64,000 bases of DNA from Rheinheimera nanhaiensis E407-8. Lineage in GTDB: Bacteria > Pseudomonadota > Gammaproteobacteria > Enterobacterales > Alteromonadaceae. Below the pieces are notes generated by a model. That model did not search any database. It had not been told where the DNA came from and saw only the letters and a program-made list of their open reading frames with translations. The position numbers were made by a program, and so were the translations under genes. This document shows, piece by piece, positions 4,494 through 11,314 of the stretch. Within the stretch, counting starts at the first letter, position 1. Every line of letters begins with the position of its first letter. The stretch lies in NCBI RefSeq assembly GCF_000296695.1, contig NZ_BAFK01000003.1:62001-126000 (forward strand), read 5' to 3'.

Positions 4494-7340
4494 TTACATA
4501 AACTTATATTCCAGTAACAGGGTATAAGCCCGGCCACGCGGATCTGCTACACGAGGTTCCCAGGCGGCACCGGCAGCAAAGTCGTTTTGGTGCGCGGTAA
4601 ACGGTGGGTCTTCATCAAACAGATTTTTGATACCAAAGGTCAGTCTCATATTATCAATACCGGCATAACTGACGCTGTAGTTATAGGTAATGTATTCATC
4701 GACATTCGGGTTCCATTGTGACGGAATATAGGTTTCGTTACGCACACTGACCGGTAATTCATCTTTGTAGCCATCACGGTACAGCTGTGTCAGGCTGTGG
4801 CTCCAGTCGCCATGTACGTAGCTGAAGTTAAGGGTGTGCTTCCATTTAATCGGCAGGTTGTAGTAACGCACGTACTCGCCAACTAAGTTTTCGCTGTAAG
4901 GTAAGCTGTCTAAGCCTTTGGTTTTAAAGGTATCGATATAACTGGCGTTCAGGTTAATTTTCCAGGCGCCGCCGGCCAGCTCGCCTGTCAGGTTCATGTC
5001 CAGCTCAATACCCTGGGTTAATGAACCGCCAGAGTTGATATAACGCCGGTCAATCGCCACCACTTCACCCTGCGCATTACGGATCCAGTTGGCAGTGAAT
5101 AAATCGTAGTTGTCGATCAGCACCTCGCGCGGTGCAGAGCGGATAGTGTCGGTACGCTCAATCTCCCACCAGTCCAGACTAAAGTTAAAGTAATCGGTAG
5201 GGACGACAACGACACCGAAGCTTTTTTGCTCTGACTCTTCCGGTGCTAAGTCGGGTTTACCACCAAATAATTCAACCGGTTGGATGCGCTCACAGCCAGC
5301 AACATTTTCATCAGCAACACCACCGGGGCAGCTTTCTGGGTCTGCCAGATCCAGGCCGGTGTACTGTAACTCGGTGATGCCGTTAAACAGCTGATTAAAA
5401 GACGGCACCTTAAAACCGGTACTAAAGGCACCACGCAGCATCAGTTGCTCCAGTGGTTTGTAGCTAAATGACACTTTAGGGTTGGTGGTGCTGCCAAAAC
5501 CGTCGTATTTGTCGTAGCGTCCGGCCAGGGTAACTTCCAGCTCGTCGGTTACTGGCAGATAAAACTCCGCAAACACCGCTTTGATATCGCGGCTGACTTT
5601 ATCCAGTACGTTGGCGTTATCAAAGGGCGCTAAAAATACCGGCCGCATCTCGGCGCGTTCATCACCATTAAACTTAAACTCTTCACGGCGTAAATCGGCA
5701 CCCAGTGCCATCATTATTTCGCCACCGGGCAGTTCGAAGCCCACTTCACCGGATACGGTCGCGTCCAGCTGCGTCATAATAGACTCGCCACCATAGAGGG
5801 TAACCCCGCGGGCAGAGGCAGACGCTAATGCTGCCAGGCCGGCGGCACTCTGGCTTTGGCCGGGTAACAAGAAGGGGTTTAAATCACCGCTACCCAGCGC
5901 TACCTGCAGCGCATCGGTAAAGTAATAACCATCGCCTAATACCGAGTCAGATTCACTGGATGCGCGCGATAAGCCAACATTGTAGTCCCAGTTTGCGATA
6001 ACACCTTCAAAAGCGGCTAAAAAGCGGTATGCCTTGGTGGTGGTGTCAATTTCACGGCCGCCACAGGCAATACAGCGCCAGCGGTACGCAATACGCTCGC
6101 CATAATTTAACTGATCTTCGCCAAAATAGTCGGCCAACGCGTTATATATAAGATCATAAGACTCGCCGGTGCTGGGATACCAGGTAGCGGGGCCAAAGGT
6201 TGAACTGGGTGAAATCTGGTAAGGTTCAAAGGCTTTACTGACATCCACTTCAGAGGCAACAAACTCCAGCGTGGCCATATGCTCTTCTGCCAGTTTGAAG
6301 CTGGCGCGGCCGATAAAGTCGATGCTTTCCTGCGGCTGCTGAATACGTGCCGCTGCCGGGTAGTCCCAGGCACAGGCATAACGCGACGACTCTGAGCTCC
6401 ATAATCTTTGATCATAAGGCCCCATCATATCGCCACCGGTTTCACAACCAGCTGCGCCTGGCAAGTCAAGAATATTCACTGCAATAATCGACTGGCCATC
6501 GAGCGGGTCAACCAGGCCAGTGCCTATCAGGTTGGCTTCGGTAGCGCCGCGGTTAAATACTGTGGCAAAAGGTGTGCCCCGGGTGTCGGGCGATAAGCCT
6601 CGCTCGGGCTGAAAGGTATTGGAAAAATCACGGTCGGTGCCCTTTAACACTTCGTTCTTTTTAAACGACAGCGTAGCAAAGGCGTTCCAGCCGTCTTTGT
6701 TAATGTCGCCGGTACCAAACAGGATATTACCGCGGTATATATTGCCGCCACCGGCCTCGGTATGGTCGACAAAAGCCGACACTTCGGCGCCGGTGTAGTC
6801 GCGTTTGGTAATAAAGTTAATGACGCCGCCAATCGCATCGGTACCGTACACGGCGGAGGCACCGTCACGTAAAACTTCCACCCGCTCCAGTGCGGCAAAA
6901 GGGATAGAGTTCAGGTCAACCGCGCGGCCTTTTAAGCCGTGCGTAGCTACCCGGCGGCCATTGAGTAACACTAGCGTGGCATCAGCACCCTGGCCGCGCA
7001 GGTTAGCGCCCGATACGCCGTTATTGCCGCGTTGTTCCTCAGAGACAATACCGCCGTTACTGGCCAGGTTGTCTGATGAGTTACCGGCAATGTTCATTTG
7101 CAGTAATAATTGCTCGGCGGAAGTAATACCGGCGGCATCAATATCGGCTTTGCTAAACACTGTAATAGGCAGTGCACCTTCCAGTGCTGTGCGCTTAATA
7201 CTGGAGCCGGTAACCCGGATCCGTTCAACTTTGCTGTCGGCCTGCATCGTATCGCTTGCTGCTGCAGTGTCCTGGGCCAGCGCATGGCTGCTCAGGCCAG
7301 CAAGGGTAAGGGCCTGAATAAGCTTATTCAACTTCATCAC
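4494..7340 (-). CDS. TonB-dependent outer-membrane receptor, substrate unknown (murein peptides proposed)
   Basis: This 948-residue protein has a signal peptide ending SHALAQD, a TonB-box-like segment (VERIRVTGSSIKR) near residue 38, a plug domain (SAEQLLLQM, GANLRGQGADATLVLLNGRRV, VEVLRDGASAVYGTDAIGGVINFITKR) and a long beta-barrel ending LLLEYKFM. Such receptors use TonB energy to import scarce ligands across the outer membrane. The plug style is the large one common in Alteromonadales, often used for peptides or glycans; no siderophore gene lies nearby. It is divergent from an NlpC/P60 peptidase and epimerase gene and shares their intergenic inverted repeat, so I infer, without proof, a murein-peptide ligand. 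The start is ATG preceded by AGGAG; the next codon is also ATG. Confidence 0.9.
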   Translation of the reverse strand: MMKLNKLIQALTLAGLSSHALAQDTAAASDTMQADSKVERIRVTGSSIKRTALEGALPITVFSKADIDAAGITSAEQLLLQMNIAGNSSDNLASNGGIVSEEQRGNNGVSGANLRGQGADATLVLLNGRRVATHGLKGRAVDLNSIPFAALERVEVLRDGASAVYGTDAIGGVINFITKRDYTGAEVSAFVDHTEAGGGNIYRGNILFGTGDINKDGWNAFATLSFKKNEVLKGTDRDFSNTFQPERGLSPDTRGTPFATVFNRGATEANLIGTGLVDPLDGQSIIAVNILDLPGAAGCETGGDMMGPYDQRLWSSESSRYACAWDYPAAARIQQPQESIDFIGRASFKLAEEHMATLEFVASEVDVSKAFEPYQISPSSTFGPATWYPSTGESYDLIYNALADYFGEDQLNYGERIAYRWRCIACGGREIDTTTKAYRFLAAFEGVIANWDYNVGLSRASSESDSVLGDGYYFTDALQVALGSGDLNPFLLPGQSQSAAGLAALASASARGVTLYGGESIMTQLDATVSGEVGFELPGGEIMMALGADLRREEFKFNGDERAEMRPVFLAPFDNANVLDKVSRDIKAVFAEFYLPVTDELEVTLAGRYDKYDGFGSTTNPKVSFSYKPLEQLMLRGAFSTGFKVPSFNQLFNGITELQYTGLDLADPESCPGGVADENVAGCERIQPVELFGGKPDLAPEESEQKSFGVVVVPTDYFNFSLDWWEIERTDTIRSAPREVLIDNYDLFTANWIRNAQGEVVAIDRRYINSGGSLTQGIELDMNLTGELAGGAWKINLNASYIDTFKTKGLDSLPYSENLVGEYVRYYNLPIKWKHTLNFSYVHGDWSHSLTQLYRDGYKDELPVSVRNETYIPSQWNPNVDEYITYNYSVSYAGIDNMRLTFGIKNLFDEDPPFTAHQNDFAAGAAWEPRVADPRGRAYTLLLEYKFM

Positions 7341-7414
7341 TTTCTCCTGGAGTTGCGTTGTTCTGTTTTTATAGTGCTATCCGTTACCCGGGTCTGAGTG
7401 CCCGTTTTATCGCC

Positions 7415-7440
7415 TGTGCAAAACGTTTAATTTCTGCACA
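7415..7440. repeat. Inverted repeat TGTGCA-N14-TGCACA upstream of the receptor gene
   Basis: Two perfect six-base arms (7415-7420 and 7435-7440) flank 14 bases in the divergent region, about 75-100 bases upstream of the receptor start. The spacing is too long for a CRP site. It may be a second operator for the receptor or a chance palindrome. Confidence 0.3.
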
Positions 7441-7501
7441 AAATTAACATAGCAATATTTCTTTCCTTTTGAAAATAAATTATGCTGATTTTTGTAAATA
7501 G

Positions 7502-7531
7502 TTGGAATATTTCATTCCTTGGCGCTATCGT
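7502..7531 (+). promoter_or_regulatory. Candidate promoter of the NlpC/P60-epimerase operon with RpiR-type operator
   Basis: An inverted repeat GGAAT-ATTTC-ATTCC occupies 7504-7518. It overlaps a candidate -35 TTGGAA (7502-7507), which is followed after 18 bases by TATCGT (7526-7531), placing the start about 20 bases before the NlpC/P60 GTG. A closely related repeat (GAATAA-T-TTATTC) lies in the promoter spacer of the RpiR-family gene at 11011-11023. The match between two promoters of one locus is seen in the sequence; that it is the regulator's operator is inference. Confidence 0.5.
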
Positions 7532-7558
7532 TGCTAGTAAATAAAGGCTGATCAACCT

Positions 7559-8989
7559 GTGAGAAATAGCGTGCAGATAAGGGCTTACAAAAGCAGGAGC
7601 TGGTTTAGCGTAGTACTGCTGCTATTAAGTAGTGGCTTGCTAAAGCCAGCCATTGCGGCCAGTGAAGATAGCCTTAATATTAGGTTTAAAACAGACGTGC
7701 CATTTGTACAACCAGAGCAGTTACAGCTGCAGTTTTGGCAGCAAAGGCTAAGCCAGGGCGACCGGCTGTTACTCACAACGGCACAAATTGCCGAACGTAA
7801 CCGGCAAACCTTTGCGCTGCAGAAGGAACTGCAGCCGTTAAGTGCACTGCCAGGCCAGTATTCTGCCGATGAGCTGACGGCGATTATCGATAACGTCAGT
7901 AAGATCCCGTCAAGCCCACGCTTTTACACCAACGGCACCGCGCTTAGCGCAGCAGATTGGCAGCGTTATCAGGTGCTGCTGGGTAAAGATCGCGTAAAAG
8001 AGACCAATCCGGTCGCTTTTGCGCTTATCGTAAAGCGCACGGCGCTGCGCGCCTTTCCGACGCTGGATAGGGTCGTTAACGAGCAGGGCAATGCTGATCT
8101 GGATCGTTTTGCCGAAACTGCCTTATTTGTCGCCGAGCCGGTGGCGGTGTTGCACCAAAGCCGTGATAAGGCCTGGCTGCTGGTACAAAGCTTTAATTAC
8201 ACCGGCTGGGTGCAGGCGGCAGATGTGGCCATCGGCAGCCGTGAGCAGGTGCTTAGCTATGCTGAGCAGGAACCGTTTTTAGTCATTACCGCAGCCAAAG
8301 CGCATACCGCTTACACGCCTGCACAGCCCGCTTTATCAGAACTACAACTGGACATGGGCGTGCGGCTACCGCTAATAAGTGCCGCCGACACCGGTTTTAA
8401 TGTGCATGGCCAAAACCCGCTGGCCAGTTATATAGTGCAATTACCGCAGCGGCTTAACGATGGCCGCTTGCATTTTCTGCCGGCGCTGCTGCCGCTTAGC
8501 AGCGATGTCAGTATTGGCTATTTGCCTTTTACCGAACGAAACCTGTTAAGCCAGGCCTTTAAGTTTTTGGGCGAGCGTTACGGCTGGGGTCATGATTATA
8601 ACGGCCGTGACTGTACCGGTTTTATCTCAGAGGTGTTTCGCAGCTTTGGTTTGCTAATGCCGCGTAACTCCTCTCAGCAGGGCATGGGCAACTACGGCAC
8701 CAACCTAAGGTTTAATCAGCACAGCAGCCAGGCTGAAAAGTTACAGGCGTTAGCGCAGGCCAGGGTGGGAGATTTGTTGTATTTTCCCGGTCATGTGTCG
8801 ATGTTTATCGGCAGGGTGCAGCAGCAGCCGTTTATGATCCACTCGGTCAATACGCTGATTTACCCTACCGATGCCGGCCTGTATCAGGGTACCTTAAACG
8901 GCGTGGTGGTCACCCCATTAATGCCACTGCATAACAATACCGAACATGCTTATCTTGAGGCGTTGTATGCCATTAAATCACTGCGTTAA
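7559..8989 (+). CDS. Secreted SH3-type NlpC/P60 (C40) cysteine peptidase, probable gamma-D-glutamyl-diamino acid endopeptidase
   Basis: The 476-residue protein starts at GTG (a second in-frame GTG is at 7571) and has a Sec signal peptide ending KPAIAA, so it acts in the periplasm or outside. An N-terminal stabilising region and two SH3-like segments (FPTLDRVVN...; PLISAADTGFNV...) precede the C-terminal NlpC/P60 domain. The catalytic residues are visible: Cys352 in GRDCTGFISEVF, His412 in GHVSMFIG and His428 in MIHSVN. This architecture resembles YkfC-type enzymes that cut gamma-D-Glu-diamino acid bonds in murein peptides, releasing L-Ala-D-Glu. That is the substrate of the epimerase encoded 11 bases downstream, which strengthens the assignment. 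Confidence 0.85.
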   Translation: MRNSVQIRAYKSRSWFSVVLLLLSSGLLKPAIAASEDSLNIRFKTDVPFVQPEQLQLQFWQQRLSQGDRLLLTTAQIAERNRQTFALQKELQPLSALPGQYSADELTAIIDNVSKIPSSPRFYTNGTALSAADWQRYQVLLGKDRVKETNPVAFALIVKRTALRAFPTLDRVVNEQGNADLDRFAETALFVAEPVAVLHQSRDKAWLLVQSFNYTGWVQAADVAIGSREQVLSYAEQEPFLVITAAKAHTAYTPAQPALSELQLDMGVRLPLISAADTGFNVHGQNPLASYIVQLPQRLNDGRLHFLPALLPLSSDVSIGYLPFTERNLLSQAFKFLGERYGWGHDYNGRDCTGFISEVFRSFGLLMPRNSSQQGMGNYGTNLRFNQHSSQAEKLQALAQARVGDLLYFPGHVSMFIGRVQQQPFMIHSVNTLIYPTDAGLYQGTLNGVVVTPLMPLHNNTEHAYLEALYAIKSLR

Positions 8990-9000
8990 CCGAGGCGACT

Positions 9001-10095
9001 ATGAAAATAACTGATATCAGACTGGGTATGTTACGGGTGCCTCTGAAAACGCCGTTTAAAACGGCATTGCGTACCGTGAACAGTATTGAGGATATTATCG
9101 TCATGATCCATACCGACAGCGGCCACGTGGGTTATGGCGAGGCGCCGGCCACCGCGGTGATCACCGGTGATATTCACGGCTCTATTATTGAAGCTATCCG
9201 CACGGTGATAAAGCCCAAGCTGATTGGCCAGGACGTTAGCGATTTAAACCACATTATCCGCCTTATTCAGGGCTGTATTATGAAAAACTACAGCGCCAAG
9301 GCGGCAGTGGAAATGGCGGTGTATGACTTGTTTGCCCAGCTATACAAAGCGCCGCTGTATAAAATTCTCGGCGGTGGCGTGCCAAAGATAACCACCGATA
9401 TTACCATCAGCGTGGATTACATCGACAAAATGGTGGCCGACTCGTTAAGTGCGGTAGAGCGCGGTTTTGAAACCTTAAAAGTGAAAGTGGGCAAAGACAT
9501 TGGTGTCGACATAGAGCGGGTCAAAGCCATTTATGCTGCGGTTGAAGGCAAGGCGCTGATCCGGCTGGATGCTAACCAGGGCTGGACGGCCAAAGAGGCG
9601 GTGTATGCACTGCGTAAGCTGGAAGACGCCGGCGTGCGGCTGGAACTGGTCGAGCAGCCGGTAAAAGCCTATGATCTGGAAGGCTTAAAATACATCACCG
9701 AGCGGGTGCACACGCCGGTGATGGCCGATGAAAGCAGCTTCGGCCCGCGTGAAGTAATAGAGCTGATTAAAATGCGCGCGGCGGACATTATTAATATTAA
9801 GCTGATGAAAACCGGCGGCATTGCCAATGCCATTAAAATTGCCGATATCTGCTCGTTTTATGATATGCAGTGCATGATTGGCTGCATGCTGGAGGGCAGT
9901 GTCAGTGTGGCCGCAGCTGTGCATGTGGCGGTGGCAAAATCTGATGTGATCACCAAAATCGACTTAGACGGCCCGTCACTGTGCGCCTACGATCCGGTAA
10001 AAAGCAGCGTAAAATTTAATAATGCCGATATTACCATTGAGGATGCGCCCGGCCTGGGCATTAGCAGTATCGATGGCCTGGAAATGCTGGCTTAA
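9001..10095 (+). CDS. L-Ala-D/L-Glu-type dipeptide epimerase (enolase superfamily)
   Basis: The 364-residue protein is an enolase-superfamily enzyme of the muconate-lactonizing subgroup. The catalytic KxK is Lys160/Lys162, metal ligands are Asp190 (RLDANQGW), Glu218 (LVEQPV) and Asp243 (MADESSFGP), and the second base is Lys267 (INIKLMKTGG). The DxD motif Asp321-Leu-Asp323 near the C-terminus binds the dipeptide amino group in L-Ala-D/L-Glu epimerases such as E. coli YcjG and B. subtilis YkfB. There is no signal peptide, so it works in the cytoplasm, converting L-Ala-D-Glu to L-Ala-L-Glu for peptidase cleavage. It follows the NlpC/P60 gene by 11 bases with a GAGG ribosome site. Related epimerases act on other dipeptides, so exact specificity is open. 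Confidence 0.88.
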   Translation: MKITDIRLGMLRVPLKTPFKTALRTVNSIEDIIVMIHTDSGHVGYGEAPATAVITGDIHGSIIEAIRTVIKPKLIGQDVSDLNHIIRLIQGCIMKNYSAKAAVEMAVYDLFAQLYKAPLYKILGGGVPKITTDITISVDYIDKMVADSLSAVERGFETLKVKVGKDIGVDIERVKAIYAAVEGKALIRLDANQGWTAKEAVYALRKLEDAGVRLELVEQPVKAYDLEGLKYITERVHTPVMADESSFGPREVIELIKMRAADIINIKLMKTGGIANAIKIADICSFYDMQCMIGCMLEGSVSVAAAVHVAVAKSDVITKIDLDGPSLCAYDPVKSSVKFNNADITIEDAPGLGISSIDGLEMLA

Positions 10096-10099
10096 TGCC

Positions 10100-10942
10100 T
10101 CAAGCCTGTTTCAGTACCTGTAGCAGCTTGACGTTTTCTTCCAGTTGATGGTCGCTGTTTTGTTGCTGGCACAGCAGTAAATACAGGATATGACATAAAT
10201 GCTGCTGCGCCATTTGCACCAGGATCGGGTTTATCCGCACGTTTTCATCGCCGCTGAGCGCAAACAGCGGTACATCGGCGGTCAGGCTTAGCGCATTGCT
10301 TTTATAGCTGGTCAGGCTAAGCAGCGGAATTTGCTGTTGTTTAGCGTAGCGCGCTAATTTAAGTAAATCGGCGTTCTGGCCAGACTCGGAGATCAGCAGC
10401 ACGGCACTTTGTGGGCCCAAGGTGCCGGCCAGCTGCAGCGACAGTGCCGGGTCGCTGTGTGCCAGCGTCAGCTTGCCCAACTGCAATAAACGAAACTGCA
10501 TGTCATGCGCCACTATGCCTGATTTGCCAAAGCCGGCCACTAACACCCGGTCGGCACGCTGCAACAAGGCTGCCGCGTCATGCAGGGCTTTCTCTTCATT
10601 GATTTCCAGAATACCGCGTAAATGGTTGTGCAGGCTAAACTGCAACTGCTCTACCAGCTGTTGTAAATTGGTTGCATTACCGGGCTCGTTGCTGTCCCGC
10701 TGCAGGGTTGAGGCGGTAATAATGGCTTCGCTTACCGCCAGCTTTAAATCCGGATAGCCTTTATAGCCCAGTTTCTGGCAAAACTTTACCACGCTGGATT
10801 GGCTGGTGCCGACCGCATCGGCCAGCTGTTGTGAGGAATAATCCCGTAGCAAATGGGCGTTATCCAGAATAAAATCTGCCAGCTTGCGCTCGATCACCGA
10901 CATCTGATCCAGCATACCGCGGATCTTAAGTAAACATACCAT
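10100..10942 (-). CDS. MurR/RpiR-family transcriptional regulator (HTH plus SIS domain)
   Basis: An N-terminal HTH_6 domain (IRGMLDQMSVIERKLADFILDN... with DAVGTSQSSVVKFCQKLGYKGYPDLK) is followed by a SIS domain (DRVLVAGFGKSGIVAHDMQFRL; VLLISESGQNADLLKLAR). Such regulators sense sugar phosphates; E. coli MurR senses MurNAc-6-phosphate. The ATG at 10942 has GAGGA ten bases upstream and gives the usual family N-terminus (280 aa). A longer frame opening with TTG at 10996 is rejected because it begins at about the predicted transcription start. The gene faces the epimerase tail to tail with a four-base gap, so regulator and enzymes form one locus. A palindrome sits between the -35 and -10 of its own promoter. 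Confidence 0.88.
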   Translation of the reverse strand: MVCLLKIRGMLDQMSVIERKLADFILDNAHLLRDYSSQQLADAVGTSQSSVVKFCQKLGYKGYPDLKLAVSEAIITASTLQRDSNEPGNATNLQQLVEQLQFSLHNHLRGILEINEEKALHDAAALLQRADRVLVAGFGKSGIVAHDMQFRLLQLGKLTLAHSDPALSLQLAGTLGPQSAVLLISESGQNADLLKLARYAKQQQIPLLSLTSYKSNALSLTADVPLFALSGDENVRINPILVQMAQQHLCHILYLLLCQQQNSDHQLEENVKLLQVLKQA

Positions 10943-11004: not shown

Positions 11005-11034
11005 AGTATTGAATAATTTATTCCGTATTGGCAA
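11005..11034 (-). promoter_or_regulatory. Candidate autoregulated promoter of the RpiR-family gene
   Basis: On the minus strand TTGCCA (11029-11034) and AATACT (11005-11010) are separated by 18 bases. The spacer contains the perfect 13-base inverted repeat GAATAA-T-TTATTC at 11011-11023, a classic repressor position. A second TTGCCAATA followed by a degenerate GGAAT-type site (10979-10993) lies just downstream. Confidence 0.5.
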
Positions 11035-11261: not shown

Positions 11262-11314
11262 TCATTTTGGCTTACCTGCAAACAAAATAACTAAAGTCAT
11301 TGCACAGGAAGCTT

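Follow-up and report, generated by a model that had tools for sequence, protein, structure and literature searches.

What might a TonB-dependent receptor import when its gene stands among genes for enzymes that act on murein peptides? The question is raised by a locus of Rheinheimera nanhaiensis E407-8 at positions 4494..10942 of a stretch of 64,000 nucleotides (hereafter the window; contig NZ_BAFK01000003.1, here C53, positions 62,001 to 126,000, of a 3.99 Mb genome), which encodes the receptor, an NlpC/P60 peptidase, an epimerase of the enolase superfamily and an RpiR-type regulator (Table 1). A preliminary description of the sequence had proposed murein import, and this interpretation is supported by the linkage of receptor orthologues to murein genes, by the presence of an epimerase in nearly all searched genomes with an unlinked receptor, and by a palindrome that the receptor, peptidase and regulator genes share with murein genes at remote places. 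The existence of a regulon for murein catabolism with a receptor among its members is well supported, and the receptor is probably a dedicated importer of murein fragments as food. With a probability of roughly 0.77, the locus supplies the outer-membrane and peptide branch of a regulon for scavenging murein, in which the receptor imports murein fragments; within this reading we infer the ligand, the direction of transport, the roles of the carriers, the effector and the repression.

Company kept by the receptor

Relatives of the receptor were taken from a scan of GTDB contigs (best 80 of 488; the closest one fetched, from Rheinheimera pleomorphica, is 91% identical), and 79 loci were fetched with flanks of about 10 kb. 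Twenty TonB-dependent transporters (TBDTs) of the same family served as controls, mostly with about 8-9 kb on each side versus 10 kb for the test loci. Strict linkage was defined as a score >200 to the epimerase, RpiR, NlpC, NamZ or MurQ families, and loose counts include weak matches with E up to 1e-10. Under the strict definition, core murein-catabolism genes lie within about 10 kb of 54 of the 79 receptor relatives and of 0/20 control TBDTs; orthologues residing mostly beside unrelated genes, the pattern that would speak against the preliminary description, were thus not what the neighbourhood comparison found. Loosely counted, the epimerase occurs near 46 of the 79 receptors, RpiR near 44, NlpC near 36, an amidase/PBP4B-like protein near 32, a beta-lactamase-fold peptidase near 27 and an M15 peptidase near 24, followed by MurQ (16), an SSF symporter (15), GH3 (15), NamZ (10) and DUF819 (7). 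In the control flanks each murein family scored 0/20, save for one weak GH3 match.

The named hosts of these loci include, among others, Rheinheimera, Alishewanella, Arsukibacterium, Pseudidiomarina, Alkalimonas, Alteromonas, Pseudoalteromonas, Thalassotalea, Luteimonas, Lysobacter, Pseudoxanthomonas, Stenotrophomonas, Thermomonas and Rhodanobacter. A tree made by a quick method from 61 of the 79 loci, the window sequence, one family row and five outgroup rows (two of these fall within the ingroup, close to its base) places the unlinked receptors mostly in the Lysobacteraceae part, at several separate places amid linked ones. Where the genomes of the 25 unlinked receptors were searched, 15 of 16 carry an epimerase (56-77% identity) at another place, a share set against no measured background frequency for that family. 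Across 118 genomes of the family, the receptor was found at 56-100% identity in 11 (among the matches listed, with up to 7 candidates scored per genome); other listed matches have at most 34% identity, except for N-terminal segments at 38-51%. A clear epimerase orthologue (E <1e-90) is present in 10 of the 11 receptor genomes versus 17 of the 107 receptor-less ones (Fisher p 8e-7, with genomes that are not independent), and in the eleventh (G009) the receptor runs with genes for NlpC, DUF819, an SSF symporter, a kinase, NamZ, RpiR and GH3.

It is highly improbable that unrelated genes have come together here by chance. Such a reading could draw on the 25 of 79 relatives that are unlinked, but the association recurs with differing gene orders across Alteromonas-, Rheinheimera-, Pseudidiomarina- and Luteimonas-type genomes, none of the 20 controls has it, and a palindrome is shared.

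Two further neighbours of the receptor were observed. A gcvP-like gene, adjacent in 10 of 23 compared loci (L156, L157, L160, L161, L164, L200, L202, L209, L211 and L212), constitutes a second conserved address, occupied mostly by Lysobacteraceae receptors without murein linkage. A flavoprotein gene of the tryptophan-halogenase family lies directly 3' of the receptor gene in 14 of the 79 loci (L175, L179, L182, L183, L185, L190-L197 and L201).

A palindrome shared with remote murein genes

A search for dyads upstream of genes in the loci, followed by inspection, exposed the palindrome GAATAAWTTATTC. With up to one mismatch, 47 of the 54 linked loci contain it, at 68 sites in all; the 25 unlinked loci have 3 sites and the 20 control loci 2. 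None of the other 29 arrangements of its half-site letters exceeds 7 sites or 5 linked loci. In the 400 nucleotides (nt) preceding the receptor gene, sites with no more than one mismatch occur in 14/54 linked, 2/25 unlinked and 0/20 control loci (other half-sites, 0); with up to two mismatches these counts are 40/54, many of the 40 being close relatives, 3/25 and 1/20, versus 14/54 linked loci for the best other half-site.

The window's genome contains eight near-sites, namely one exact and seven one-mismatch copies, and six of these are located in front of murein-related genes: the exact copy at rpiR and five of the one-mismatch copies. The latter lie I) between a GH3 gene and a run encoding the SSF symporter, a kinase, MurQ (above its curated cut-off) and NamZ; II) between an M14 gene and the gene of an NhaC-like carrier accompanied by an M15 VanX-like dipeptidase; III) 5' of a gene for an S66 LD-carboxypeptidase; IV) 29 nt upstream of a run for PxpA/B/C (5-oxoprolinase), a D-glutamate cyclase-like protein and a D-amino-acid transaminase (L244:7053-11300, contig C51 of genome G000), likely a drain for D-Glu and D-Ala; and V) 5' of a gene for a flavin- and iron-sulfur-type (FAD/FeS) protein with only below-cut-off GlcD-like matches in NCBIfam, which we assume may be a D-lactate dehydrogenase. 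Of the other two one-mismatch copies, one is inside a gcvP-like gene and one 5' of an erpA-like gene (both named by eye).

In another genome of the genus (G017), the place of the receptor is filled by an Oar-like TBDT without significant similarity to it (L116:10292-13333), and both operator-like elements are kept in its promoter, so that the regulon seems to reserve this position for a receptor, whichever protein fills it. The family to which Luteimonas sp. 8-5 belongs, taken to be Lysobacteraceae, was sampled as well, with 60 genomes. There, a longer form of the palindrome, GAATAAWTTATTGAC, first noticed in some of the fetched loci of the Luteimonas group, has 27 sites in 26 genomes versus 0 for the reversed pattern, all at the 5' ends of genes: NlpC (20), DUF819 (6) and an Oar-like TBDT (1). 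For three NlpC genes (L304, L308 and L318) the longest open reading frame (ORF) overruns the site, its start probably having been set too early. Another palindrome used as a control, AAGAATWATTCTT, had 2 sites, neither of them with a cluster family in its 1.5 kb flanks.

Exact GAATAAWTTATTC was found at 13 places in 8 of 16 chosen family genomes, versus 3 for the reversed pattern. Among the copies assigned to genes, it precedes rpiR in G017, G063 and G097 and, in G017 and G063, also the D-lactate-dehydrogenase-like gene; in G060 it occurs without an evident murein gene alongside. In G042 an exact copy lies between murQ and lysA (above cut-off); this lysA, the gene for diaminopimelate decarboxylase (L276:2653-3906), is flanked by rpiR and murQ and accompanied by an exact and a near copy of the palindrome, which suggests use of the diaminopimelate of murein. 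Separately, in G042 (L273:3608-4912) and G081 (L274:3454-4854) a gene 3' of ribosomal protein genes (named by eye) has an exact palindrome at its start; in L273 this gene encodes a protein of the beta-lactamase2 fold.

These positions bear on whether the locus rather helps the cell to recycle or remodel its own wall, the receptor recovering self-shed fragments instead of feeding. Pointing that way, the mur/fts cluster (named by eye and in the preliminary description) starts at 11300 of the window, an adjacency kept in three genomes of the genus (G017, G063 and G097), and an AmpG-like permease, identified by eye only, is apparently encoded elsewhere in the genome. However, the adjacency is confined to 4 of 35 mapped neighbourhoods (0/31 among the other loci mapped), and in the window's genome the palindrome also marks NamZ/MurQ catabolism, disposal of 5-oxoproline and D-Glu, and the D-lactate-dehydrogenase-like gene; own-wall recovery is hence judged unlikely.

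Proteins of the locus and candidate carriers

All four genes were found by ORFs and Pfam where the preliminary description had placed them, with the receptor gene divergent from the peptidase and epimerase genes and the regulator gene convergent with the latter, its end 5 bases past the end of the epimerase gene.

Table 1. Genes and operator-like elements of the locus (positions in the window)
Feature	Position	Strand	Basis and remarks
TonB-dependent receptor, proposed murein-fragment importer, 947 amino acids	4494..7337	-	Pfam plug and barrel; orthologue linkage; ATG 7337, GTG 7340 also open
Second operator-like element, GCATAATTTATTT on receptor strand, 2 mismatches	7473..7485	.	Kept as GCATAAWTTATTT in the same 16 Rheinheimera-group sequences as the element at 7505..7517
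Operator-like element GAATATTTCATTC (GAATGAAATATTC on receptor strand), 2 mismatches	7505..7517	.	GAATGAAATATTC or GAATCAAATATTC in 16/16 aligned Rheinheimera-group sequences
NlpC/P60 peptidase, predicted YkfC-like gamma-D-Glu-diamino acid endopeptidase, SH3b domain	7559..8989	+	Pfam; alignment; Cys352/His412/His428
Predicted L-Ala-D/L-Glu dipeptide epimerase, enolase superfamily	9001..10095	+	Closeness to 1jpm; residues
MurR/RpiR-family regulator, HTH_6 and SIS	10100..10942	-	Pfam; ATG 10942; longest ORF from TTG 10996
Exact operator candidate GAATAATTTATTC	11011..11023	.	69 nt 5' of regulator ATG; only exact copy in the genome

The receptor has the plug and C-terminal beta-barrel of a TBDT according to Pfam (PF07715, E 1.8e-17; PF00593, E 2.4e-38), matches in the PDB and an AlphaFold2 model (predicted local distance difference test 80.6, predicted template modelling score 0.79; plug region poor). 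Six cysteines are invariant in a 47-row alignment of 46 of the 79 loci and the window sequence. The peptidase, the only PF00877 match genome-wide (SH3_6, E 4.7e-14; NLPC_P60, E 1.3e-11), has an N-terminus that looks signal-peptide-like by eye; the triad Cys352/His412/His428 noted earlier is present and invariant in a 26-row alignment, and Y341, W343 and D351 of the S1 site are present. The epimerase, in which no signal peptide is visible by eye, has as its best solved relative the L-Ala-D/L-Glu epimerase 1jpm (phmmer, E 5.5e-98). Its K160, K162, D190, E218, D243, K267 and D321/D323, residues to which we presume catalytic roles, align with 1jpm and comprise the Lys-Lys dyad, the metal ligands and the dipeptide-binding DxD of the superfamily, just as first described; its scores stay below the NCBIfam equivalog cut-offs (NF041118, 253/500 bits; PRK15129, 109/343 bits). 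From these sequence features, a YkfC-like peptidase and an L-Ala-D/L-Glu epimerase are predicted. The regulator contains the helix-turn-helix and SIS domains expected of the MurR/RpiR family (HTH_6, E 8.9e-22; SIS, E 9.4e-13; scanned on the ORF extending to 10996), and the family assignment stands; an equivalog-level MurR it is not (PRK15482, 85/408 bits; best model NF008590, 174/355 bits).

The earlier remark that 4494..10942 encodes no inner-membrane transporter is correct. The clusters of relatives, annotated with Pfam and NCBIfam, contain an Amidase_2 protein with peptidoglycan-binding and PBP4B-type domains, GH3, NamZ, a MurQ-like SIS protein, a BadF-type kinase, an SSF symporter, DUF819, a Na+/H+ antiporter-like carrier, an M15 D-Ala-D-Ala dipeptidase, an S66 LD-carboxypeptidase, an M14 carboxypeptidase and alanine racemase (Alr); judged by gene content, these together would form a route from muropeptides to central metabolism. 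The transporter gap is narrowed by candidates that bear the palindrome, namely the SSF symporter and the NhaC-like carrier in the window's genome and DUF819 in the Luteimonas family. The single DUF819 copy of the window's genome scores 198 bits to the cluster profile versus 568-669 for Alteromonas/Alkalimonas-type and 174-375 for Luteimonas-family proteins, and no palindrome with up to two mismatches was found in the 9.3 kb examined; on account of this weaker match and the lack of a nearby site, it is not claimed as a carrier in this organism. Likewise, no site with up to two mismatches was found near the PBP4B-like protein of this genome (contig C46). A further cluster protein (c13; L126:5592-6890 and L129:6620-7888), whose scanned members match nothing in Pfam, NCBIfam or PDB under the thresholds applied, is encoded upstream of DUF819, NlpC or epimerase genes in most of seven family loci.

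Several observations weigh against murein import as outlined here. The fold search returned generic TBDTs only, giving no indication of the ligand, and the nearest solved folds, among 50 matches listed, share 10-17% identity and belong to receptors for siderophores, colicins, cobalamin, heme and transferrin. The neighbourhoods of the NlpC, epimerase and receptor genes themselves supplied the family profiles; the five core markers are missing near 25/79 relatives, 14 of which have none of the scanned families except the receptor (the remaining unlinked loci have some, e.g., M15, Alr, GH3 or amidase-like genes); and the search of one genome with an unlinked receptor (L158) found no epimerase match. 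Genes of the N-acetylmuramic acid (MurNAc) branch are less often near the receptor (MurQ 16/79, NamZ 10/79, in flanks that end at 10 kb). As to the palindrome, the 68 sites were counted in the same loci in which it was discovered, so that the two further tests, in the window's genome and the Luteimonas family, matter more. In the former, the reversed-pattern control gives 6 sites (the genes there were not located) versus 8, so the number alone is little evidence and only the positions speak. Both elements between the receptor and NlpC genes deviate from GAATAAWTTATTC by two mismatches, and a stretch just downstream, perhaps a promoter, is conserved too in the 16 Rheinheimera-group sequences; conservation of the elements alone is therefore not specific, which weakens the footprint argument. 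Finally, the peptidase, which has the triad and the S1 site of the YkfC type, deviates from it at two positions: Thr353 replaces Ser239, and Asn370, invariant in the 26-row alignment, replaces Asp256 of Bacillus cereus YkfC, the residue that PMC2954226 ties to specificity for a free N-terminal L-Ala.

The solved relatives of the receptor (siderophore, colicin and cobalamin receptors) would also fit import of another co-needed substrate, such as general peptides, D-amino-acid peptides or a metal chelate, by a receptor merely sharing the regulon, as would those members of its clade that lie beside a gcvP-like gene or M15/Alr genes. Since linkage and palindrome are specific relative to the 20 control TBDTs, and the epimerase is kept in 15/16 tested unlinked genomes, this explanation is considered improbable.

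Proposed route and relation to known systems

Under the reading preferred here, import of murein as food, the receptor would take up murein fragments too large for porins into the periplasm with energy from TonB. Porin limits are exceeded by disaccharide-peptides or cross-linked stem peptides, not by short free peptides. In the periplasm, the fragments would be trimmed by hexosaminidases (GH3, NamZ), by amidases where present and by peptidases, with the NlpC enzyme cutting gamma-D-Glu-diaminopimelate bonds to yield L-Ala-D-Glu. Carriers may then bring sugar and dipeptide into the cytoplasm, the SSF symporter being encoded beside the MurNAc genes and the peptide-side carrier being DUF819 in relatives and the NhaC-like protein in the window's genome. 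The epimerase would convert L-Ala-D-Glu to L-Ala-L-Glu, MurNAc would be handled by the kinase and MurQ, and D-lactate, D-Glu and D-Ala would be drained by downstream palindrome-bearing genes. The RpiR protein would repress via GAATAAWTTATTC palindromes until released by a murein-derived sugar phosphate.

It is reasonably likely, moreover, that a dedicated TBDT family for muropeptides or murein stem peptides heads a widespread gammaproteobacterial murein-utilisation regulon (in Rheinheimera, Alishewanella, Alteromonas, Pseudidiomarina, Luteimonas, Lysobacter, Pseudoxanthomonas and others), that the receptor can be exchanged for an unrelated Oar-like one under the same operators, and that DUF819 is one of the carriers that take murein peptides across the inner membrane.

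What is known of murein recycling in Gram-negative bacteria mainly concerns the steps from the inner membrane inward, and the parts of the proposed regulon are already known one by one. The murR / murQP-yfeW regulon of Escherichia coli, which serves MurNAc catabolism, likewise combines an RpiR-type regulator, the MurQ etherase and a PBP4B-type protein (PRK03642, 463 bits, cut-off 385, in a cluster protein of a relative); here, in contrast, there are a TBDT, SSF, DUF819 and NhaC-like carriers instead of a phosphotransferase system (PTS) permease, NlpC and epimerase genes, and a regulator that is no MurR equivalog. The rescue of muropeptides in Bacillus subtilis by NamZ/NagZ/AmiE resembles the clusters in uniting the NamZ exo-muramidase, GH3, an amidase and MurQ, but it operates without an outer membrane and a receptor. 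With the YkfB/YkfC pair of Bacillus (PMC2954226), the locus shares the kinds of enzymes, the catalytic triad, 1jpm as the best solved relative of the epimerase and, by inferred numbering, a tyrosine of the SH3b domain aligned with Tyr214; it differs in Asn370, Thr353, the signal-peptide-like N-terminus and the Gram-negative setting with a receptor. Caulobacter combines peptidoglycan recycling with clusters for TonB-dependent uptake of N-acetylglucosamine (GlcNAc), in which a TBDT gene likewise neighbours genes for an inner-membrane carrier and for the catabolism of a sugar of wall or chitin; those clusters transport GlcNAc and have GntR-type regulators and a PTS permease, with epimerase and NlpC unmentioned in the main text (PMC13046382). 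In the available parts of further sources, a carbohydrate reconstruction in mat consortia includes a MurQ-based MurNAc prediction (PMC5507952), a review of Trojan-horse strategies names MurP and AmpG as importers (PMC13209645), and DUF819 is described as having a CPA/AT-type transporter fold, with no substrate assigned there (PMC8396727). No murein-fragment TBDT was named in the titles and abstract starts of the open-access literature searched, a scope largely outside subscription papers and not proof of novelty.

The palindrome yields a direct list of genes for testing. If the reading is true, DUF819 carriers gain a testable role, the receptor offers an entry route for murein-like molecules, and a dedicated receptor with its regulon would suggest that the walls of other bacteria are food for many bacteria in water and soil.

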